Shown: piece after piece, positions 12,737-29,636 of the stretch
Numbering within the stretch: the first letter of the stretch is position 1
How the letters are laid out: the number at the start of each line of letters is the position of its first letter
IMG/VR virus record: IMGVR_UViG_3300010354_000261
Span: 1-35,484 of that record
Source of the DNA: a virus
Strand: one strand, 5' to 3'
DNA length: 35,484 nt
Notes under the pieces: model-generated
What the model was told of the DNA's origin: nothing
What the model saw: the letters and a program-made list of their open reading frames with translations, nothing else
Database searches by the model: none
Made by a program: the position numbers and the translations under genes

Positions 12737-13171
12737 ATGAGTTTTAAAACAATCGAAATTACAGGATCAAAAGTAGTTGCTCAACAGAGCAGAAAGATTA
12801 GCCATTTCTACAAAGGCTTCAGCACACTAACTGGTGATACCAACACACAACTGTTTGATTTTGATTTAATTAAGCAGGATTTAATTAATCATTTTAAAAC
12901 TCGTAAAGGCGAACGTGTGATGAATCCTACATTTGGAAGTGTAATATGGGATTTATTAATGGAACCTTTAACAGATGATACTAGAGAATTACTAAAACAG
13001 GATATTTCAAATATTTGTAACAGTGATCCTAGAGTTGTCCCTACACAATTAGATTTAACTGAATATGAAAACGGTTACATTTTAGAAATTACATTAGTAA
13101 TGGCAAGTACTAACCAATCTTCTAATATGAAATTAGTGTTCGACCAAAAAATTGGCCTATCGGTTCAATAA
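12737..13171 (+). CDS. 25: gp25-like baseplate wedge subunit
   Basis: A 144-residue protein with the gp25 signature: FDFDLIKQDLINHFKTRKGE, then RVMNPTFGSVIWDLLMEPL (about residues 58-80) and the DPRV strand. The same R-x-G-E-x-x-M-x-P-x-F-G motif is shared by gp25 of contractile tails and TssE of type VI secretion. With gp6 and gp7 it makes the wedge core on which the sheath begins. Length is close to T4 gp25 (132 residues). A late-promoter box lies 5 bases upstream and no ribosome site is seen. Secure identification. Confidence 0.92.
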   Translation: MSFKTIEITGSKVVAQQSRKISHFYKGFSTLTGDTNTQLFDFDLIKQDLINHFKTRKGERVMNPTFGSVIWDLLMEPLTDDTRELLKQDISNICNSDPRVVPTQLDLTEYENGYILEITLVMASTNQSSNMKLVFDQKIGLSVQ

Positions 13172-13218: not shown

Positions 13219-16200
13219 ATGATACCATCTACTAATAGCAAATTATATGTAACTGAGGATTGGAAAAAGATTTATCAATCTTTTCGTAATGCCGACTTTC
13301 AAAGTTATGATTTTGAAACATTACGTAGGACTATGATACAGTATCTTCAGGAAAATTATCCTGAAGATTTTAATGATTTTATTGATAGTAGTGAGTACAT
13401 TGCTCTTATAGATCTCATAGCTTATCTAGGACAAAATTTAAGTTTTAGAATTGATCTTAATGCCAGAGAAAATTTTATAGAAACAGCCCAGCGTAGAGAT
13501 AGTATATTACGTTTAGCTCAACTTATCAGTTATGTTCCGAGCAGAAATGTTCCTTCCAATGGATTTTTAAAATTAACATCTGTGGCCACTACAGATAGCA
13601 TTATCGATTCTAACGGTATTAACCTTGCCAATGTTACAGTTGGTTGGAATGATAATACCAACAGTAATTGGTACGGACAATTTATAACCATATTAAATTC
13701 TGCCATGTCCGGAAGTTTTGTGTTTGGTAAGCCCTACGATAGAAAAACTATTGGTGGTATACTAACTGAACAGTATAGGATTAACAGTTCTAATAGGGAT
13801 ATTCCAGTTTACTCTTTCTTAAAAAGTATAAACGGTACAAGTATGAACTTTGAGATAGTTCCTTGTACATTTAGTGATAAAACTTTTATATACGAAGAAG
13901 CTCCTAGACCTGGCAGCACATTTAGTTTTGTGTATAGGAATGATAACCAAGGAGCCGGTAGTGTTAATACAGGGTTTTTCGCTCACTTTAGACAAGGTGA
14001 GTTAGCAGTTTCTACATTTACTATTGATAATCCTGTTAGTAATGAAATAGTTGGTATTAATAGTAATAATATTAATAACACAGATGTTTGGTTGTGGCAA
14101 TTAGACGGTGATGGAAATTATTCTAATCTGTGGACCAAGGTACCTGATATTATTGGTAACAACATAATCTATAATAGTTTAAGTAAAGATCAGAGAAAAA
14201 TTTACAGTGTAAGAACACGTGATCAGGACCAAGTTGATTTAAACTTTGCCGATGGTAGTTTCGGAGATCTACCAAAAGGTACATTTAGAGTATTCTATAG
14301 ACAAAGTAACGGGCTGACATATTCTGTTAGACCTGAACAAATGTCAGGAATTACAGTTGAAATGCCTTATTTTAACAAGTCGGGTCAAAGTCATACACTA
14401 ACATTAACATTTGCTCTACAATATTCTGTTAATAATGCTACTGCTGCAGAATCAAATGCCAGTATACAACAAAAAGCACCTCAGGCATTTTATGTTCAGA
14501 ATAGAATGATCACTGCAGAAGACTATAACATTGCTCCTTTAACATTAGGCAGCGATATAGTCAAAGTTAAAAGTACTAATCGCGTGTCGAGTGGTGTTAG
14601 TAAGTATTTTGAATTAAGCGACGTAAGTGGAAAATATAGTAAAACTAATATTTTTGCTGCTGATGGTATTTTATATAAAGAAACAAAAAGTAATTTCTTT
14701 ACTTTTGGACTTGGAAGTAGAAATGAAATATTAGCTGTGATTAAAAATCAGCTAGCACCGTTGGTAAAATCACCTTCCATAAGATCTTTTTATTATGACG
14801 AATATAGTAGACCTGACCTGTTGTCCTTATCGCTAGAGTGGAAAACTCCAGTAAGCACACAGGCCAAAGGTTATTTTGATAACTCTGGTACACCTGTGCC
14901 TGTAGGATCTACCGTGGCAGGTAATGCCAAATATATTTCTCCAGGTGCGCTTGTAAAATTTGTTCCACCTTCTGGCAAATATTTTACACCAGCAGGTAAG
15001 CACACAAATACCGCATCATCTACTACATCAGAATATCTGTGGGTAAAAGTAATTAGTATTGTGGGAGATGGATCTAATGGCGGTCAAGGCGAGCTAGAGG
15101 ATGGTTCGGGTCCTATAGTGTTATCTCAATTCGTCCAAGAAGATAGTATACCGGTAGAAGTATTACCAAAATTTGTAGACACCTATAGTGCTGCTTTTGA
15201 GAATGATTTAGTTAATCTCTGTTTGAACAGACAAAAGTTTGGTCTAAGTTTCAGTAGTGTGAACAGATCTTGGAACATAATTTTTGAACCTAACCTAGAT
15301 ACTACCGGACCATTTAGTCTTGCTAATCAGGGTGATACCTCAGGAACTAATTTAGATGCTAGTTGGATTTTTTATTTTAGCTTGGTAGGAAACACCTATA
15401 AAGTGACTTATAGATTAACAGATTATATTTTTGAGAGTGAAGAAGAAACTAGTTTCTTTACTGATCAAAATAATATTAATTATGACTTTGTTAACAATAG
15501 TGTAATCAAGGACCAAATTAGTGTTTTATCTGTTAATCCTATGGTAAGTTCAGCACAGGCTTTAGGCACTGATTATATATGGCAAGTAGACGGTCCTGTG
15601 GTTGAAGTTGATGGATATATAGATGCTAAAAAAGTAAAAGTCAGTTTTTATGATAGAAATAATACTGGAGAAATTATAGACCCTGATAGTTTTACTAAAA
15701 TTATAGGTACTAGTTCAAATACAAGTTATGTATTTTTTGAGAAGATAGAAGGCGATGCTGTGTATGGTGATTACAATAGTTTAATTCCTGCCAGTAATTT
15801 CATAACAACTTCTACTACAAGCTCAGTTACTACACCATTACTTGACCAGTTATACTATTTTACATCTACTAATGTAGTTAACACTTATACTGGATCGGTA
15901 TGGGTGTATAGACCTGAATACACTCGTTACGAAGGTCGCAGCGATTTAAAATTCCATTATCTGCATAATAGCAGCGATAACCGTAGAATTGATCCTAGCA
16001 AGAGCAACATCATTGATATCTATCTACTAACAGGTAGCTATGATAATGAATATAGAACCTGGTTGATTACAGGGCTGGGCAGTGAGCCCTTACCTCCGAC
16101 TAGCCAAAGTCTTGAACAGAGTTATAGTAGCATATTAGAACCGATAAAGGCTATTAGTGACGAAATCGTTTATCAACCAGTAAAATATAAAGTATTGTTC

Positions 16201-16578
16201 GGTAGTAAAGCAGTTGAAAATTTAAGAGCAACTTTTAAGGCAGTTAGGAATCCTAATCGAACAGTAAGCGATAATGACATAAAAAGTAGAATACTTGTTG
16301 CTATACAAGATTTCTTTAGCATAGAGAATTGGGATTTTGGACAGACATTTTATTTCAGTGAACTGGTAACTTATGTTATGAATATTATGACACCTGATAT
16401 AACTAACTTTGTTATTGTGCCAAACAGTAATAACGATTTTGGCAGTCTGTATGAAATAAAATGCGCCAGCAATGAGATTTTTATAAATGGAGCTACGGCT
16501 AACGATATTGAAGTAATTGATGCTATCACAGCCAGTCAGTTAAACGCTACATCTATTATCAATAGTACCGGAAGTTAA
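13219..16578 (+). CDS. 6: gp6-like baseplate wedge subunit
   Basis: An 1119-residue protein. The N-terminal signature of gp6 is plain: VTEDWKKIYQSFRNADFQSY, then RRTMIQYLQENYPEDFNDFI and SEYIALIDLIAYLGQNLSFR, followed by LNARENFIETAQRRDSILRL. The middle contains RMITAEDYNIAPL and the C-terminal third NRTVSDNDIKSRILVAIQDF, both conserved in gp6/gpJ-type wedge proteins. gp6 dimers ring the baseplate and move when it changes shape. T4 gp6 is 660 residues, so about 450 residues are extra, mainly in a Ser/Thr-rich central part. It starts without a ribosome site behind late-promoter boxes and is followed 2 bases later by the giant gp7-like gene. Confidence 0.92.
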   Translation: MIPSTNSKLYVTEDWKKIYQSFRNADFQSYDFETLRRTMIQYLQENYPEDFNDFIDSSEYIALIDLIAYLGQNLSFRIDLNARENFIETAQRRDSILRLAQLISYVPSRNVPSNGFLKLTSVATTDSIIDSNGINLANVTVGWNDNTNSNWYGQFITILNSAMSGSFVFGKPYDRKTIGGILTEQYRINSSNRDIPVYSFLKSINGTSMNFEIVPCTFSDKTFIYEEAPRPGSTFSFVYRNDNQGAGSVNTGFFAHFRQGELAVSTFTIDNPVSNEIVGINSNNINNTDVWLWQLDGDGNYSNLWTKVPDIIGNNIIYNSLSKDQRKIYSVRTRDQDQVDLNFADGSFGDLPKGTFRVFYRQSNGLTYSVRPEQMSGITVEMPYFNKSGQSHTLTLTFALQYSVNNATAAESNASIQQKAPQAFYVQNRMITAEDYNIAPLTLGSDIVKVKSTNRVSSGVSKYFELSDVSGKYSKTNIFAADGILYKETKSNFFTFGLGSRNEILAVIKNQLAPLVKSPSIRSFYYDEYSRPDLLSLSLEWKTPVSTQAKGYFDNSGTPVPVGSTVAGNAKYISPGALVKFVPPSGKYFTPAGKHTNTASSTTSEYLWVKVISIVGDGSNGGQGELEDGSGPIVLSQFVQEDSIPVEVLPKFVDTYSAAFENDLVNLCLNRQKFGLSFSSVNRSWNIIFEPNLDTTGPFSLANQGDTSGTNLDASWIFYFSLVGNTYKVTYRLTDYIFESEEETSFFTDQNNINYDFVNNSVIKDQISVLSVNPMVSSAQALGTDYIWQVDGPVVEVDGYIDAKKVKVSFYDRNNTGEIIDPDSFTKIIGTSSNTSYVFFEKIEGDAVYGDYNSLIPASNFITTSTTSSVTTPLLDQLYYFTSTNVVNTYTGSVWVYRPEYTRYEGRSDLKFHYLHNSSDNRRIDPSKSNIIDIYLLTGSYDNEYRTWLITGLGSEPLPPTSQSLEQSYSSILEPIKAISDEIVYQPVKYKVLFGSKAVENLRATFKAVRNPNRTVSDNDIKSRILVAIQDFFSIENWDFGQTFYFSELVTYVMNIMTPDITNFVIVPNSNNDFGSLYEIKCASNEIFINGATANDIEVIDAITASQLNATSIINSTGS

Positions 16579-16580
16579 GA

Positions 16581-19500
16581 ATGGCTGAACGATCAATTAA
16601 AAGTATAAATTTATTACCAGAATTTTTTAGAACAGATAAAAATTCTAAATTTCTTTCAAGCACTATTGATCAACTTATCCAACCACCTAAACTTGAACGT
16701 ATAGATGGTTATGTTGGCAGTAAGTTAACTCCTAATTATGTGTCAACATCTGATGTTTATATTACAGAGACTGATCCTTTACGTGGAAATTATCAATTAG
16801 AGCCCGCGCTTGTTGTAAAAGATAGTTTAGGCAATGTTCAAGATGTTATAGGTATTGAAGACCTAACTAATCAAATTAAGTTTCACGGCGGTAATGTAGA
16901 TAATTTTGATAAGTTATACAGGTCTAAGGTATATTCATATAGTCCACATATAGATTTTGATAAATTTGTAAATTTTCAAGAATATTATTGGTTAGTAAAT
17001 GGTCCAGAAACAGTTGAAATAACAGGAACACGGATAGCAAGCACTAGCACGTTTAGTGTTACTGACAATGCGTTAGAAACATCCTTTGTTTTTAGCCCAG
17101 ATGGTTTGACTGAAGATCCTTTATTAATTTTATATAGGGGAAATACATATACTTTTAATATTAACAGTGTTCATAAATTTTGTATCAAAAGTCAACCTAG
17201 TCCCGGTAATGAAGATCTTTACACTTCTGGATTAACAAATAACGAAATAAGTGCAGGACAACTCACTATAGTGGTAGGAGCTACCACTCCAGATACACTT
17301 TATTATGCTGCTGACGATCAGGCTTTGGCAACAGGTATATTTGTGGTTAAGTCTATAGACCAAGATGCTATAATAGATGTAGAAGATGAAATTATAGGTA
17401 AGGTCAATTATACCAGCGGTACAGGTGTTAATCTAACCAACGGTATGAAAATCAGATTTGGTGGATATGTGTACCCTGAATCTTATAGAGACAAAGAATT
17501 TATTGTAGAAGGCGTAGGGTCTTCTATCAAACTGGTTGATTTTAATTTATTAATTACACCTGAATCTATAGCAGATAGATATCCGGAAACTTTTGATTCA
17601 ACAGACTTTGATTCTTATCCGTTCGATAATGATAAAAAGTTACCTGCCGATCCTGAATATGTTACTATTAATAGGGCTAGTCAAGATTTAAATTCTTGGA
17701 GTAGATATAATAGGTGGTTCCATAAGCAAGTAATAGACGCCAGTGCTCAAGCCAATAATGTTAATGCTGTATATCCAAATGACTTACGTGCCCGCAGGCC
17801 TATTATTGAATTTGTACCAAACATAAAACTTTACAACTTCGGTGATATAGGTGTTAGAGACGTTCAGGTAATAGATACTAGCACTACAGATGCGTTCAGT
17901 ATAATAGAAGGAACATCCACCAATTATGTTGTGGATGGGCATGCCTTACAACAAGGCGACAGAATTATATTTACAGCTGACACAGACGCAGATGTAAGGT
18001 CTACTATATTCGAAGTAAATTATATTAACGAATTGGATAGACTTGAGCTACAGGTTTCTGAAACAGTCTCTAATGGTATTTGTACTGTAGTTACCACAGG
18101 TACAAACTATAAGGGTACGAGTTGGTGGTACAACGGAACACAATGGTTAGAAGGACAGCAGCATACAGTTATAAATCAGGCACCTAAGTTTGATTTATTT
18201 GATGAAAATGGTAGAAGTTATAGTTTAGACTATGTTAGTACATTTGATGGTAATCAAGTTTTTGGATACGATGTAGGCACAGGAACCCCTGATAGCATTT
18301 TAGGATTTCCGTTAAAATATAGAAATAGTTATGGAGTAGGAAGCTATCTATTTAAGAATTATTTCTGCGAAGAGTCAATTGTAATTACCACAGGCTTTGA
18401 CACTACTTCTACACGCGGTCCTATGGAAACGTTCCTTAGGATTAAGACTGATAATGATTACATTTTTAAGAATGTATGGGAAACAACACCTAGTTACCAA
18501 ATTCCTATTATTGAAATACAGGCTACTTCAGTATCTACTTCCAGTGTAGAAGTTACTAGTATAAACCAAGCCGGTTTAGTTAATTTCGATTTATTAGTCT
18601 ATATAAATGGAAATAAACTTGATAACGACAAGTTTACCATTGTCAATACTGGAACTAGGTCTTTTGTTAATTTTAATACAATTTTACCTAAAGATACAGA
18701 TGTAGTTTACAAAATTTACACAAATTCTACCCCAAATAAAAACGGTTATTATGAACCTAGTGCTGGTTTTACTAATAACCCACTTAATCAATTCTCGAGT
18801 AATTTAACATTAAGTCAAGTAACAGACCATGTAGAAACTATGGTTGATAGGATTGATAGTTATACAGGTCAATTTCCTGGAACTAGCAATCTTAGAGATT
18901 TGTCTGATGTAGGATCTAATGGAAGATTAATAGTTGCGCATGAAAATCCTTTAGCATTTTCACAATTATTTTTAGGTAAAAAAGAACACAGCTTAATTAG
19001 TGCTATTGATAAGGGCAGAGAGCAGTATGCTCAATTTAAATTAGCCTTACAACGAAAAATTAGTGATATTGAAATACAAGATGACCCCGTTCGAGCCCTT
19101 GATATTGTATTAAAGGAGCTTAACAAAGATAAAGATCTTTTAAGTTCTTATTATTATAGTGATATGTTAGGCTACGGTACAAATAGAAAGATTACCTCTT
19201 GGACAGTATCTAATGTAAACACTAAAGTTTATCCTATTAGTGATGAGTTTAAATTAGATGGCTTAAGTTTAAGATCTGTATTGGTATATATTAATAATAA
19301 TCAATTATTATATGATATTGATTATGTTTTTGTTGAGAATGATTCGTCGATAGAATTGTTACTTGATTTGTCTTTAGGTGACCTTATCGAAGTTTATGAT
19401 TATGTAGATACTAGTGGGAGTTTTGTTCCTTCTACTCCTACTAAATTAGGACTTTATCCTAAGTTTGTTCCTTCTAAATTTATAGACAATAGTTACTTAA

Positions 19501-22500
19501 CTCCTATAGAAGTTATACAAGGCCATGATGGCAGTATTACAGTTGCCTATGATGATTACAGAGATGACATTATATTAGAATTTGAAAAAAGAATATTCAA
19601 CAATCTTAAAGTAAACTATAGACCAGAATTGCTAGACATAAACATGGCTAGCCCGGGATTGTTTAGAGATATTGGATATTCTAGAGATCAAGTAAATGGT
19701 ATTTTAGTTAAAGATTTTCTGTCATGGGCGGGTACTTATGGTATTGAGCAATATGATAATTCTGCCTTCGACGAAGGAAATAGTTTTACCTACAATTATA
19801 CTAAAGCATATCATACGGCCCTAAATGAAAACTTAGTAGGTTCTTGGAGAGCAATTTACAAATATTATTTTGATACTGATCGTCCTCATTCACATCCATG
19901 GGAAATGTTAGGATTCAGTGTTAAACCGTTATGGTGGGAAGATGAATACGGTCCTGCTCCGTACACTAGCGGTAATTCTATATTATGGGATGATATAGAA
20001 CAAGGTTTAATCAGACAAGGTTCTAGACAAGGCATAGATTTAAATTATTCAAGACCGGGCTTATCTACATTTTTACCTGTAGATGATGGTGGCGATTTAA
20101 TTGATCCACAAACTTTATTAGCATCTAATTTAACAGATTTTAATATCAGACAGAATTGGACATTTGGTGATATGGGCCCGGCAGAAACGGCTTGGCGTAG
20201 AAGTAGTCAATGGCCTTTCGTTGTACAGAAATTATTAGCATTGACCAAGCCTGCCGATTATTGTGCCATAATGTATGACCCATACAGACTTAATAAGAAT
20301 GCGGCTAACCAATGGGTATACGGCACTGAAAAAGTATTTTTAAGTCCAAAATCAGTTAAGGTTCATGCTGACGGTAATACATTATGTAGCGGATACGCTG
20401 TGTATGTTGTAGAGAATGGACTTGCTAGAAATAGAAATTATGTTCAGGCACTAAAAACTGACCTTACATATTTAGATTATAACCTATTTTACAAAGTAGG
20501 GGGTTTTGTAAGTAAGGATAAGTTACAAATTATAATAGATGCAATTGATCCGACTAGTAGAAGTCCTGGAGCAATTTTGCCTCCTGAAGATTATGACCTG
20601 TTTTTAAATGTAAGCAATCCTATCCAGACAACAAATATATCAGGAATCATTGTACAAAAACTTAATGGAAAGTTTGTTGTAAGAGGATATGATAATACAA
20701 ATCCATACTTTAAAATATATTCTCCCTTACGTACAATTAATACCCCTACTATAACAGTAGGTGGAAAATCAGAAAGTTATGTTTTATGGGGAGCTAGACA
20801 AACTGATGTTAATAGAGGTATAAGTGATGCTGATCTTACATCGGCTAAGTCTACAACTTCTGGAATATTTTATGAAAAAGGTCAAATAGTTTTTTACCAA
20901 AACAACTATTATAGAGTAATTGTTAATCATAAGTCTGGAAATAGTTTTGTTGAAGAATATTTTTCAAGAATGCCATATTTGCCTACCAAAGGCGGTGTTG
21001 TCGTTCAATCGGCTGCTAGATTCTCTGACGTGGTTGTCTCAGTTCCCTATGAGACTGAATATGAAACAGTTCAAGAAGTTTATGACCTAATATTAGGTTA
21101 TGGCGAATGGCTAAAAAAGCAAGGATTTGTTTTTGATGAATATAACACAGAATTATCTGACACAATTGATTGGAAATTTACAGGTAAAGAATTTTTATAT
21201 TGGACCACGCAGAATTGGTCAGATAACAGCATTATAACTTTAAGTCCTTTTGCTAATAAAGTTAAATTTAAATTAGCAAACAGTGTTGTTGATAATATTT
21301 TTAACACTTTTTATGATTATAGTATTCTAAGTGCTAACGGTACAGCATTTAATCAACGCAATCTAACAGTCAATAGAGAAGATGGATTGTGTACAATAGA
21401 AACAGCCAATACTACAGATGGCATATATTTTGCCAGTTTACATAATGTTCAAAAAGAACATGCTATGGTGTTTAACAATGCCACCATGTTCAATGATACA
21501 ATTTATGATATAACAACTGGTTATAGACAGCGTAGAATTAAATTGTTAGGCTTTAGAACTAGAGATTGGGACGGAGATTTCTTTAGTCCCGGTTTTGTTT
21601 ACGATACAGCCTACATTTCTGATTGGACTTCTTATAAAGATTATAAGAATGGAGATGTGGTAAAATTTGCTGGCAAGTACTACAGTGCTAAATCGAATAT
21701 TTTTGGTACAGAAAAGTTTGATTTTTCAAAGTGGAGTTTGTTAGGAGAATATCCTGTAGCAAAATTACTGCCCAATTTTAGTTATAAGATTGAGCAGTTT
21801 GAAGATTTTTATAGTTTAGATATAGATAATTTCGATCCAGTACAAGAAGATCTAGCACAACATTTAATTGGGTATACACCAAGAGTATATCTGTTCAATG
21901 TGTTTACCAATCCTATTAGCCAATATAAATTTTATCAAGGATTTATTAGAGAAAAAGGTACACGTAATGCTATTAGTAAATTAGCCAAGGCAAGTATTCA
22001 AACTCTAAAAGGTGAAATAGATTATACAGAAGAATGGGCATTTAGAGTAGGACATTATGGTTCATTCAGTTCATTCCAAGAAATAGAAATTCCGCTAAGA
22101 GAAGGTGAGTTTATCGAAAATCCTCAAATAATAAAATTTGATGAGGATGATAAACCTGATGCTAACGATTTTATATATTATGTAACTAGTTCGGATGTAG
22201 TTTTATATTCTAAGGATTATGATGTAACACGTACATTTGTAACCAGTGATAATCCTGATATTGTCAAATTACAAACAGCAGGATTTGTAAGATTGGACGA
22301 TATCAATTACACTGCTTACAATGAGAATACTCTTTTAGATATTCTTAATAATAATCAATTAACTGAAGGTGATTATGTTTGGATAGGATTTAAAAATAAC
22401 GGCGACTGGGACGTTTATAGATATACTTTGATTAGTAGCGAAGTAGTCCGTTCTTTCATGGACGCCCTTACAGCTAACGTGATGACTATTGTTACAAAAG

Positions 22501-25500
22501 GCATGCATACATTAAGGCCTGGGGATATAATTAGCCTAAGTCAATTCGATAGTCAAATTGATGGTGTTTATACAGTTCAATCTGTGCCTAAACTTAATCA
22601 ATTTACAATAACATTTGATAATGCGTTCGTAGGAGAAACATTACCAGATGTTCCTGGTTTATTATTCAAGTTTCAAAGTAACAAATATGTTTCATTCGAT
22701 AAATTACCTAAAGATAGCCAGCTTTTACAATTACCATATGAAAGTAAAGTATGGTTAGAGGACGATGGAAGTGGTAAATGGATCGTATATCAGAAAGTTA
22801 ATAACTATTCTAATACCAATGCCTTAAAACATCTAGATAGAAATACTGGTTGGGCAATTACTAAAACCTATAATGGGTTATTTGCCCTAAGCGAACCGGG
22901 TATCGATGACGGGACTGATGCTAATACCGGAACTGTTTATATCTATAATACTTCAAGCATAAGCACACCAGTAATAACTCTTACAACCACTACAGGCAAT
23001 TTAGACTATGGTTATGATATAGCATTTGACGGTGAATTATTAGCAGTAGGCGCACCTGGACATAACAGTAATAGAGGGCAGGTTTGGTTATATAGTATAG
23101 TTAACACATCTATGCCCTACATTATTAACAGTATAACTCCTACAGTATTTGGTAGATTTGGTGAAAGTTTGTCTGTTAAGAAGTTGTCTACTAATACTCA
23201 TATGTTAATGGTAGGCGAACCTAAATCCGGCGAAGCATTTAGAACTACAATTACTACGGGTACTACAATTACTGAAAGTATATGGACCGGCCTTGCTCCT
23301 ACTAATCCTCTTACTACAAATTCAGAATACGGTTATTCGCTTGATGCCTATCCTGCCAATAATATCTATGTAGTAGGTGCTCCTGGTCAGACAGATAATA
23401 AAGGTAGCGTATTTGTATTCACTAGTACAAATAATACAGAAATAGTTTCTCCGTTCATTGATTACGGAAGTAGAGGTAGGTTCGGTCATGCTGTAAAACT
23501 TTCGGATGACGGTAACTATTTGTTTGTGGGTGCGCCTGATGTACGCAATGGAGATATAGGTAGTTTAAGTTTCGGTAAAGTTCAAGTTTACAAATTTAAT
23601 GGAACAACATATTCCTCTCATCAAACCATTTCAAATCCTGTTGACATTCCTGGAATGAAGTTTGGTTATGAGATTGATGTTAACCACGATGGTACTGAAC
23701 TAGTAATCGGTGCTCTTGGTACAAATAGAAATGTTAGATTGACATTTAACAAGTACAGTACCTTATTACCCATGAGTGTTCAGCCTCCGGGATCTAGGTA
23801 TGTTAATGATTCTGAAAGTGATTTGAGTGATGTAGAAACTACGTTTGATGGCGGTACAACTAAATTCTTTGATCAAATAAATTATTCAGGTACAGCTTAT
23901 ATCTATAATAGAAAGAACAATCTGTTTAAGATAGCTGACGAATTATTACCTACATCCATTAATTATGTAGAAGGAAACGGAACCAATTTTGGTCATAGTA
24001 TTGCTTTAAATAATGACACTATATATGTAGGAGCCCCGGCTTACAACAATAAACCATGGCAAGATAATGTACAGAGTATGGTTTATAAATTTAATAAAAT
24101 AGATCAAAAAGTAAAAAGCTGGAATGAATTTAGAACACAAGATAACCTAGTTGATGTAGACACAATTAAAAAAATTACTGTGTTAAATTCATTAACTGAA
24201 CAAGTTATAGATTATCTTGATGTAATTGATCCTTTAAAAGGACGTATTTCAGGCATAGCAGATCAAGACATAACTTATAAATCTACAATTGATCCTGCCG
24301 TCTACTCCATAGGTGATACCACTACACTCAATGACCTAAATTCAAATTGGACAGATGAGCATGTTGGTGAGTTATGGTGGGATCTAAGTAGTGTAAAATA
24401 CATTTGGTATGAACAAGGTGAGCTAAATTACAGGAAAAATAATTGGGGTAAATTATTTCCAGGATCTACCATTGATATATATGAATGGGTAGGAAGTGAA
24501 CTACTACCCAGTGAATGGGCCGAACAAGCAGACACTAATGCCGGACTGACTTTTGGAATAAGTGGTCAACCTAAGCATCCTGATAATAGCGTATTAAGTG
24601 TAAAACAAGTTTACAACTCGATTACTAATTCATTTATTAATGTTTATTATTATTGGGTAAAGAATAAAACTCTTGTGCCTAATACAAAAAATCGAAGGAT
24701 CAGTGCTTTCCAAGTAGCCAGCATAATTGAAAATCCATTATTATATGGATTACAATATGCCACCGTATTAGATAGTAATGCTATATCTGTAGCCAATTTG
24801 AATGGACAGTTAGTAGAAGATACTATACATCTCAATATAACAAGTGACAAGATTAAAAACAAAGTTCCGTTACATACCGAATGGATGTTAATGCAGGAAG
24901 GTGATGAAGATAGCGTACCAAATAGTAGATTAGAAACTAAATTATTTGACAGTCTTTTAGGACAAGATAAGTTAGAACAACCTGTTCCTGATCCAAATCT
25001 AAAAGAGCGTAATCGTTACGGTATTGAGATTAGACCAAGACAGAGCATGTTTAAGAATCGTAATGATGCTCTAAGGAATTTGTTTGATTTTGCTAACGAT
25101 GTATTAGCCAATGAAAGAATAGCTGGTTATTATAGTTTTATTAATCTTAACAAGAAAGATTTACCACCTGACGAATTTTCAAGAGAATATGACCGTGTTG
25201 TTGAAGATAACGAAGGGTTATTATATGTAACTACTGCTACATTAGTACGTGCTGTTCTAACTTCTACCGTGGTCAATGGTAAAATTAATTCTGTGTCTAT
25301 TGTAACATCTGGAACAGGCTATGAATCTGCTCCATTAGTAACTATAGATTCAGATACCTCGGCCGAGATAACAGTTTCTTTAAACACTACTACAAATATA
25401 AGCACAGCCACTATAATTGACGCAGGCTATGGATTTGTCAATCCGCCCAGTATCACTGTTAGACCTTACACAATATTAGTGTTGGCAGATAGTACACAGG

Positions 25501-28500
25501 GAGGTAAATGGGCCAAATATGAATGGACAGGATCATGGACCTTAGCAGAAACGCAAAGTTATGATACAACCTTATATTGGGATAGAGTGGATTGGTCTAG
25601 TAACAACTATAATCAGTTTGTAGATTATGTTTACACGGTTGATAGTTTATACCAATTAGCTACTATAGAAGATATCAACCTTGGAGAATATGTAAAAGTC
25701 AATGATGCCGGATTAGGGTATTTTATTATTCTAGAAAAAGTATCCGATCAAGGAACTTACGGCAACGGATATGATATTGTCTTTGCTGAAAAAGGCACTA
25801 TAAAATTTAACGACAGTTTATGGAATTCTTCAGTTGATAATACTGAAGAACTTAAGAACATTTTAACTGCCTTAAAAGAAAACATTTTTATAAACGAACT
25901 TAAAATATATTGGAATTTATTTTGGTTCCAGGCAGTTAAGTATGCTCTTACTGAACAAAAGTTATTAGACTGGGCGTTCAAAACTTCATTTATTAATGTT
26001 ACCAATTATGCCGGAGAACTAGGTCAACCTAGTTTTTATAAATTACAGAATAGCGAGTTTTACGAAGATTATATCAGAGAAGTAAAACCATATCATACTC
26101 AAATTAGAAGTTTTACTACCAATCATAAACAGTTAGAAGTTTCAAACAATTATATAACTGATTTTGATTTGCCTGCTACATACGATGAAATTAATAATAA
26201 ATTTGCCATAGTCCAACCTACAGATCCTGAAGCCAATCAATATCCTTGGAAAGAATATTTTAATAATTACAAATTTGAGATAGATTCTATAGATGTAAGT
26301 GATGGTGGAAGTGGATACGGTGAAGTACCCAGTGTTATTATTGTAGCTAAAACGGGTGACACAGGAGCAGGTGCTACAGCAGTTGCTTATATTAGATCAG
26401 GTAAAGTCTATCATATAGAAGTAACTAATCCGGGTAGTGGTTATACTACATCACCCTATGTTTACATTGTAGGAGGAGGAGCAGGAGTTACTAAAACTGC
26501 TGTTGCTTATGCTCGTATTAAAAATAACAAAGTTAGATCTTTTAATATTAGTTTAAAATTTGATAGAACTTCTAGGAATGAAGAACAGGGCACTAATTTA
26601 TCAGTTACAGATATATTTTCTTGTAACGGTTCTACAACAGAGTTTGTGTTAAGTTGGTTGGCGGAACCAGATAAAAGTCAGTTTGTTGTTACCCTAGATG
26701 ACGTAGCCGTATTGAGTAGTGATTACACAATAGAATATTATAATAATTTTATAGGATTAGGTACTGAGTACAATAAAGAATATAACAAAATTGTGTTTAC
26801 AAACTTTATACCAGAATCCGGAACAACTTTAAAAGTAATTTACAATAAAAATACAAAACTACTAAATGCTGTTGATAGAATTGTAAATTATTATGCTCCT
26901 ACAGCAGGTATGCCAGGGTTAGATCTAGGGCAGTTAATGTCCGGAATAGTATATCCAGGTGCTATGATAGGCGGGCTGAATTTTAATAGTAGTGAAGATT
27001 CCATACGAGATAGTGATATAAGTGGCGGAGCTTGGACTACATCTACAGGTTTAACTGCTACAGATACATTATATTATCAAACTTTATTCGGAGTTGATCC
27101 AGACAGATTTGCAACTACTACAACAGATATTGGTGTAAATGTTCTTACTGTGGGCGCACAGGGCAAGTATGCTGACGAGATAATAATTGACGGTGACGGG
27201 TTTATCACGCCGTACACCAGTCATGCTCCTGAAGAACTTTTACCAGGTGAAGTAAACGAAAGTGTTTCAATAAGTGTGTTTACTAAACATATAGAAGGTG
27301 CTCCTACTGTTATCTCATCTTATTTTAATGTTGAAGCCGGCTCTACAACTACCAAATATATGAGTGTACTGCCTGCTAACAGCGATAGTGTAATAGTAAC
27401 ATATCAAAATAAGATTTTTGATTATACAACTACGACTAATTTTACAACATCTACGCAGTTCACCATTGACTGGTCAGCCAGAGAAATCATTCTAAGTCCT
27501 CAGTCACAGTCCGGAAAAGCTGGTTATACTATTATTAGCATAGGTGGAGGTAGAGGATCAGAGGATACAGCAGTAATAGATCACCCTAGTATGACAGTGA
27601 ATACATCTATGGGCGAATTCACTTCTACACAGTTACAAAGTTTATCCATATTTGACACTGTTAAAAGTGCTTATGTAACAGTTAACGGAGAAAGCATACC
27701 TGAATTGACTACCAGTACAAGTATTCAACTGGGTTATATGTTAACTCGTTCGCATTCTAATAACAAAAGAGCTGCTGTGAATGTTTATAATTTACCTGAC
27801 GGAGAAAATACAGTTACAGCATGGTTCTTTGGATCTGCCAACAAGTATTTTAATGAAGTAAATGAAGAAATATTTTCTTGGACATCTACTCAGACTACGT
27901 TTACATTGAGTATGCCTCCTGGTATCATAGAACCATTAGTTGGTCAAGTTATTGTTGAACTTGATACAGGTTCAGGAAAACATATTTTACGTCCACCTAA
28001 GATTGACTATTATGAAGTACTGGATACTGCTAATACATATTATGATATATCAGAGACAACGTCTACAATTCGTGTGTACAAAAATGGTGTAGAGTTAGTT
28101 CATCCTTCAGATTATAACACTACACCTGGAAATACTCATGTAATATTGTATGCTCCTCAGCAGTTAAAAGATGTAATCGCCATTGTTAATTTAACTAATG
28201 AACATGATTATGATTTAGTAAATGATACTTTAACTCTCAACCAAAATCATACAGTAGGTGAATTGCGTGTGATAACCTTTAATAATCACGACGATATGTT
28301 GATGAGGACAGAAACATTTGAAGGAAACACATTTAGAAGATACAAAATTAGCCGACCTGCTCTGGATCAAGATTATGTATGGGTTATTGTAAATGGTATA
28401 CCTTTAATTAATCATTATGATTATGAAATATTAGATGACAGTTTGACCATACAGGTTAGTGATGCCTTTGAACACAGCTCGTCTGATGAGATAATTATTA

Positions 28501-29636
28501 TAAGCATATCAAGCAGCCAGCTTTCTGACAGCGTCATCGGATATAGGATTTTCAATGACTTTTTAAGTAGAGTTCATTATAAGAGGTTGAGTAAACAAAA
28601 TACAACATATCTTACACAGGAATTATATCTCGGTGATAAAGAAATTCATGTTGCTGATAGTTCGGTTTTAAGTAATCCTATTGTAGAAAAGAATATTCCC
28701 GGCGTTGTTTACATTGACGGTGAACGTATAGAATATTTTGTTAAGGATGGAAATATTCTAAAACAACTACGCAGAAGCACATTATGTACTGCCCCTGCGT
28801 TGTATTCTGAAATTAATTCTAAGGTTATAGATCAAGGAACAGACCAAAATATTCCTTACACTGATAGATTATTAAGACAAGACAGATTAACAACGGCTTC
28901 AGTAACCACATATACAATACCGATTAATAATCATGTGTTAGATTATACAATTACAGGTACAAGCACTGTTGTGTTTTCTAATAAGGGCATTAGATTGAAC
29001 ACAATTAGCACAAATACTTTTATTAAAAACACAGTAAGATTAGAAGATCAAATTAGTGTATATTATGGTGGCAGACAATTACGTAAGACAGGAGTTTACC
29101 GACAGGTTACTACAGCATCTTATGACAGTCCAGTGATTAATTTTACAACAATTAGTAATGTTGCGTTGTTAACTACATCAACATCAACAGCATTACCGAT
29201 TACTAATGTGGTGGGCACCGCTTATGTAGTTACTTCTACTAATCAGGTTTGGGTTTACAATAATTCGTCAAGATATGGTGCGGTAAACGGATATGAATAT
29301 ACCGGATTTGATTACTTGCCACCTGAATTTAGTATTAATGTTAGTGGGTCTAATCAAACAATTCAATTAAATATTGAAGATGGCATAGCTAGTAGTGTGT
29401 TATTAACTATCACTAAGAAAGAATTTGATGTAGCTAAAGTGTGGAACGATATAGATCCTGAAAATACCGCTACAACTATTTCGTTGATTGAAAGTTCGAG
29501 CGCACCTGCTAGATTCTTACAGGCAAGACCTGCTGAATTGCCAGACACTTACTACTATGGAGGGGATCCGACACTGACAGAAGATACAGGATTTGCTCTA
29601 ACTGATGAGGATGATGAACCATTAGAGGAATATTGA
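16581..29636 (+). CDS. 7: Giant gp7-like baseplate wedge protein with beta-propeller
   Basis: A single 4351-residue frame, more than four times T4 gp7 (1032 residues). Position after gp25-gp6 and an N terminus of the marine T4-like wedge type ([40 protein letters not shown]) argue for gp7. Residues about 2090-2508 hold seven FG-GAP-type repeats. Residues about 2897-2963 and 3235-3317 hold G-x-G-Y repeats ([27 protein letters not shown]). [17 protein letters not shown] segment lies near residue 3170. The C terminus ends in an acidic tail ([14 protein letters not shown]). There is no signal peptide or membrane segment. GGAA 8 bases before the ATG serves as ribosome site. The gp7 name covers the N-terminal part and position; most of the length has no T4 counterpart. 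Confidence 0.75.
22848..24105 (+). other. Seven FG-GAP-type repeats (beta-propeller) inside the gp7-like protein
   Basis: Seven similar units of about 60 residues follow each other: [38 protein letters not shown] with [88 protein letters not shown]. Each has the FG...VGAP core of FG-GAP repeats, mostly followed by a VxVY-type strand. Seven units is the number that closes an integrin-alpha-like propeller. Some blades keep a short D-D-G or H-D-G turn, but a full calcium loop is not evident. Confidence 0.7.

Follow-up and report, generated by a model that had tools for sequence, protein, structure and literature searches.

The locus analysed here raises the question of whether a structural protein encoded beside the baseplate wedge genes of a phage contains the propeller of integrin alpha chains, and what such a domain would do there. 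The phage is an uncultivated T4-related myovirus, and the window (the whole stretch of DNA that was analysed, 35,484 nucleotides) holds a run of FG-GAP-type repeats within the largest gene of the following cluster:

12737–13171, plus strand: baseplate wedge subunit of 144 aa (phrog_261, E = 1.8e-16; phrog_43, E = 7e-16)
13219–16578, plus strand: gp6-like baseplate wedge protein (phrog_10646, E = 6.5e-283; phrog_219, the T4 gp6 family, E = 3e-25)
16581–29636, plus strand: giant virion structural protein of 4351 aa, phrog_10938 family, directly 3' of the gp6-like gene (ESI-MS/MS flag on the PA5oct relative); carries the propeller

The 144-aa wedge subunit is gp25-like, as judged from its PHROG matches, size and position. 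The genes are ordered gp25-like, gp6-like and then giant ORF, as gene 6 is followed by gene 7 in T4, and a collagen-like fibre gene lies immediately 3' of the giant ORF. The sequence-only reading of this DNA had called the giant protein gp7-like. Its place after the gp25-like and gp6-like genes agrees with that name; its sequence does not, as the hhalign probabilities against T4 gp7 (phrog_964) were 0.09% and 0.53%, with no detectable homology, and the two proteins belong to different PHROG families. Because homology to T4 gp7 was not found, "gp7-like" denotes position only. Homology to T4 gp8 was looked for and was not detected either. The same reading was right in stating that T4 gp7 has no propeller domain.

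The giant protein matches phrog_10938 with 1142 bits, and its backbone is matched by 87 phage records. Members of phrog_10938 include 121Q gp582 and PA5oct gp355, and the latter carries a mass-spectrometry (ESI-MS/MS) flag in its database record that marks it as a virion protein. These two and the RaK2-like giant virion protein share a homologous backbone with the window protein at about 26–30% identity and occupy the same place after gp6. CBB_236, which is numbered beside the gp6 gene of phage CBB (CBB_237), was detected in CBB virions (PMC5259590), and its position suggests that it belongs to the same family. Among solved structures, the backbone profile matched only chitin-binding modules (solved chitinases and deacetylases). 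A phrog_460 match labelled "head closure Hc2" (26262–26507, residues 3228–3309) falls on glycine-rich GxGY...P repeats, and the label is probably misleading.

Seven FG-GAP units were located at residues about 2082–2520 of the giant protein (22824–24140), preceded by a beta segment. In the list below, bit scores refer to a blade HMM built without the window and without its 89%-identical relative (held-out HMM), A1 is an alignment of 28 family sequences, and AF2 denotes the predicted model that was run on A1:

22686–22823, plus strand: segment with beta strands ahead of blade 1 (AF2 model; conserved G-x-W-x-V-Y-x-K in A1)
22824–23000, plus strand: FG-GAP blade 1, degenerate, SEPG replacing GAPG (7.2 bits, held-out HMM; A1; AF2 strands 1a–1d)
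23001–23147, plus strand: FG-GAP blade 2, YGYDI...LAVGAPG (30 bits, held-out; sub-threshold PF01839 hit at 23040–23093)
23148–23315, plus strand: FG-GAP blade 3, degenerate, FGESL...MVGEPK (A1 and AF2)
23316–23459, plus strand: FG-GAP blade 4, YGYSL...VVGAPG (27 bits, held-out)
23460–23648, plus strand: FG-GAP blade 5, FGHAV...LFVGAP (49 bits, held-out)
23649–23972, plus strand: FG-GAP blade 6, long b-c loop, partial DVNHDG in the a-b region (20 bits, held-out; invariant T/D columns in A1)
23973–24140, plus strand: FG-GAP blade 7, FGHSI...IYVGAP (34 bits, held-out; best FG-GAP_2 stretch)

The propeller region matched Pfam FG-GAP_2 (PF14312) at E = 4.2e-13, its 49.7 bits exceeding the cut-off of 23, whereas the score with PF01839 was only 14.8 bits, below the cut-off of 22.1. 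PF14312 was also matched by 25 of the 28 members of A1. A blade HMM built from the relatives found seven units in residues 2036–2550 and no blade elsewhere in the 4351 residues that could form a second propeller. With the held-out HMM, units 2, 4, 5, 6 and 7 scored 20–49 bits, unit 1 scored 7.2 bits and unit 3 less than 5 bits. In 200 shuffles of the segment the maximum was 7.7 bits and none had two hits above 8, which together with the held-out profiles rules out a chance or compositional artefact. Units 1 and 3 are degenerate, having lost the GAP motif (SEPG and GEPK, respectively), yet in A1 they align with intact units of relatives; since their held-out scores are low, these two blades rest on A1 and the AF2 model, both of which place a blade there. 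Seven consecutive units had been claimed at 22848–24105. The count was confirmed, as five strong and two weak units, and the span was nearly right; the blades actually occupy ~22824–24140 and are preceded by the beta segment, which might contribute the strand that closes the ring. A TFD...TTFD motif (23727–23882) that is kept in nearly all relatives lies in the long b-c loop of blade 6.

The AF2 model of the window propeller has a mean pLDDT of 83.3 and a pTM of 0.84, and exhibits seven sets of four strands, of which strand 3d is weak. A Foldseek search of the PDB returned integrin alpha heads at all of ranks 1–16, with E values down to 1.8e-9 and TM-scores by target length of up to 0.59 over about 520 alignment columns; the TM-scores with integrins stay at only about 0.5–0.6, and the sequence identity over the fold alignment is about 13–14%. 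The A1 family profile matched integrin alpha-4 with E = 1.2e-18 and many further integrin alpha chains. The AF2 model of the homologue L045, which is 39% identical (backbone query), gave a pLDDT of 79.4 and a pTM of 0.82, and integrin alpha chains accounted for nearly all of its top 50 fold matches, alpha-M and alpha-X first. The seven sets of four strands and the full-length matches to closed integrin propellers suggest that the predicted seven-bladed ring is closed. Assignment of the segment as a seven-bladed beta-propeller that is built of FG-GAP units and has the integrin-alpha fold is well supported by the profile match, the predicted fold and the conserved blade number, and an integrin-alpha-like propeller is what had been proposed from the sequence, together with a role as a binding head. 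Fewer than about five repeats, a missing FG-GAP match and a predicted fold other than a propeller were each checked for, and none was found.

The integrin alpha head (PF01839; PDB 3v4p and 2vc2), the best match by profile and by fold, likewise has seven FG-GAP blades. The window propeller differs from it in belonging to a viral structural protein, in the low identity given above and in its calcium-binding motifs: the strict motif DxDxDGxxD does not occur in the window propeller, where one relaxed DVNHDG at residue 2366 (a partial DxNxDG) was the only related sequence. The domain therefore resembles integrins in its fold without being an integrin alpha chain. Endosialidase NF and neuraminidases ranked further down among the fold matches. 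Phages do employ propeller enzymes, and the domain might accordingly act enzymatically on the cell surface in the manner of sialidase-like phage propellers; this is very improbable given that integrin matches predominate, that no catalytic family was matched in Pfam, and that most of the invariant columns are fold positions occupied by glycine, proline or aromatic residues.

Relatives were collected from IMG/VR with a backbone query (187 relatives) and with a propeller profile (184), and 80 were kept from each. In the first set, 74 ORFs contained both anchors that flank the propeller, and the region between the anchors measured 401–1284 aa in 71 of them (duplicates included). In the three others (L054–L056), loci that share one region, it measured 21 aa and holds no propeller. 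Blade counts in the first set were mostly seven, including L041, L045 and L057, which were outside the HMM training; only four to five units were recognisable in the longest regions (L061, L063, L066, L068, L069 and L073). Blades were also counted in 58 distinct members found only in the second set: 50 had seven blades, seven had six and one had eight. Seven is, as far as units can be recognised in sequence, the conserved blade number despite a region length of about 400 to 1280 aa. A varying blade number as the source of the length differences was ruled out, the count staying at seven in most members; the differences arise because modules are inserted between strands.

Unlike the window protein, the backbone proteins of five cultured relatives (PA5oct, SCTP-2, Atu_ph07, 121Q and Sinorhizobium phage Phosso) gave no significant blade match, so a baseplate can in general work without the propeller. 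The sequence that fills the propeller site had no Pfam match in Atu_ph07, SCTP-2 and Phosso. This site spans about 880 aa in Atu_ph07 (L086 12444–15089) and in Phosso (L089 12480–15107).

Insertions of at least 25 aa numbered 82, counted over related sequences rather than as independent events, and 73 of these are in b-c or d-a loops. The sites are the 3d-4a loop (32), the b-c loops of blade 2 (26) and blade 4 (15), the c-d loop of blade 5 (7) and the interior of strand 4d (2), and the loop from blade 3 to blade 4 receives the largest insertions. The b-c and d-a loops form one face of a propeller, the face on which integrin alpha chains also carry their extra domain; the integrin I-domain is inserted after blade 2, whereas the largest insertions of the phage propellers follow blade 3. 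The L045 model contains extra strands in the 2b-2c, 3d-4a and 4b-4c loops, the same three sites as the main insertions. CBM_5_12 scored above the Pfam cut-off among the inserted modules of six relatives (L045, L036, L042, L064, L065 and L081). Insertions of 560–810 aa occur in the propellers of L063 (13022–17158), L066, L068, L069 and L073; the long insertions of L063, L069 and L073, which were scanned, matched nothing in Pfam other than FG-GAP and CBM5/12. Modules of this type also occur in the window protein outside the propeller, where two CBM5/12-type stretches lie within 20700–22200. The better one is:

20862–20942, plus strand: CBM5/12-type module outside the propeller, same giant protein (PF02839, E = 1.1e-6, 29 bits against a cut-off of 26.2)

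The most probable reading, to which we assign a probability of roughly 0.6, is that the propeller in the giant protein encoded 3' of the gp6-like gene serves the baseplate as a rigid, exposed head for binding surfaces. In this reading the ring stays constant, whereas the face made up of the b-c and d-a loops is variable and, in relatives, bears plugged-in modules, CBM5/12 among them; this face would contact glycans or proteins of the host surface as the baseplate lands. We infer the location on the baseplate, the exposure, the binding and the kind of ligand. The case for host-surface binding is circumstantial, and comprises the one-sided insertions, the CBM5/12 modules of relatives and a divergence faster than that of most of the protein. 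The CBM5/12 modules may be general decoration, as they are also found outside the propeller, and the divergence might be due to relaxed constraint or to protein partners that co-vary with the propeller.

Among the closer relatives no segment is less conserved than the propeller, which is 43, 35, 40 and 33% identical to that of L004, L005, L007 and L011, respectively. The corresponding values are 75, 63, 72 and 72% for residues 1700–1850 and 70, 65, 63 and 66% for residues 2506–2700; over the closer relatives, the propeller ranges over 30–43% and these two segments over 57–75%. Residues 1850–2085, ahead of the propeller, are nearly as variable as the propeller itself (53, 41, 43 and 40%). The dN/dS of the propeller between the window phage and its nearest relative is 0.044, like that of the rest of the protein, which indicates purifying selection at short range. 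This value and the conserved blade number weigh against a decayed repeat or neutral filler that comes from a cellular FG-GAP protein and has no present role, a reading suggested by the two degenerate blades of seven in the window and by the family members that are without the domain; we regard it as the least probable of those considered.

Propeller distances correlate with backbone distances (Pearson r = 0.86, reached in none of 1000 permutations), which argues for vertical inheritance of the propeller. Horizontal swapping left no clear sign, and only L020 is somewhat off the correlation. Such co-inheritance with the backbone would also suit a built-in part, and the main rival to a surface-binding head is an internal docking platform that holds baseplate or fibre proteins and makes no contact with the host. 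Integrin-type propellers bind protein partners, and the giant gene is situated within the wedge cluster with the fibre gene next to it. Nonetheless, few segments of the protein vary as much as the propeller, and modules as long as about 800 aa fit into its loops, which is unusual for a buried docking surface; we consider a docking platform unlikely, though clearly more probable than an enzyme or a filler.

Propellers on phage baseplates are already known; for an FG-GAP propeller inside a wedge-region protein, no report was found in a literature search that was thin on subscription journals. The C-terminal domain of phiKZ gp131 (PDB 4GBF) is a seven-bladed propeller at the baseplate periphery of a jumbo phage and a suspected receptor binder, and the description of it mentions no FG-GAP relationship (PMC4901313). 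It is described as a peripheral tail protein, whereas the window propeller is an internal domain of the 4351-aa wedge-region protein, and 4GBF is outside the top 50 fold matches of the latter. The receptor-binding protein gp45 of Staphylococcus phage phi11 is described there too, as a baseplate propeller with a putative glycan site (PMC4901313); unlike the window propeller, it has five blades and forms a trimeric receptor-binding protein of a siphophage. CBB_552 of phage CBB is a propeller protein in a jumbo-phage virion (PMC5259590) and differs in being a separate protein with Kelch repeats. FG-GAP or same-fold propellers also occur in UFOVP1367_22, the Atu_ph07 hemagglutinin protein, the 3692-aa protein of Phosso and the structural protein H6WG31 of cyanophage S-TIM5, all of which are separate proteins and not the gp6-adjacent giant. 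A search of the S-TIM5 genome from its start to 50 kb did not identify the propeller gene. In Phosso, whose gp6-adjacent protein has no blades, a separate 11-kb hypothetical gene (record 57900–68978; L088 2997–10462) encodes about 30 FG-GAP blades in its first 2498 residues alone (FG-GAP_2, E = 2e-157), and its product probably consists of several propellers in a row.

These results place an integrin-alpha-type propeller, whose ring is fixed and whose insertions are modular and one-sided, in a structural protein of the baseplate cluster of dozens of distinct uncultivated phages. Tentatively, and with somewhat more doubt than belief, widespread uncultivated myoviruses may use the integrin-alpha plan of a constant ring with interchangeable binding modules on one face; the wedge region itself, and not the tail fibres alone, would then contribute to host recognition. 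Should the propeller indeed bind, metagenomes would allow this share of host recognition to be read straight from a single domain, and phages would offer a testable counterpart of integrin-like modular adhesion.
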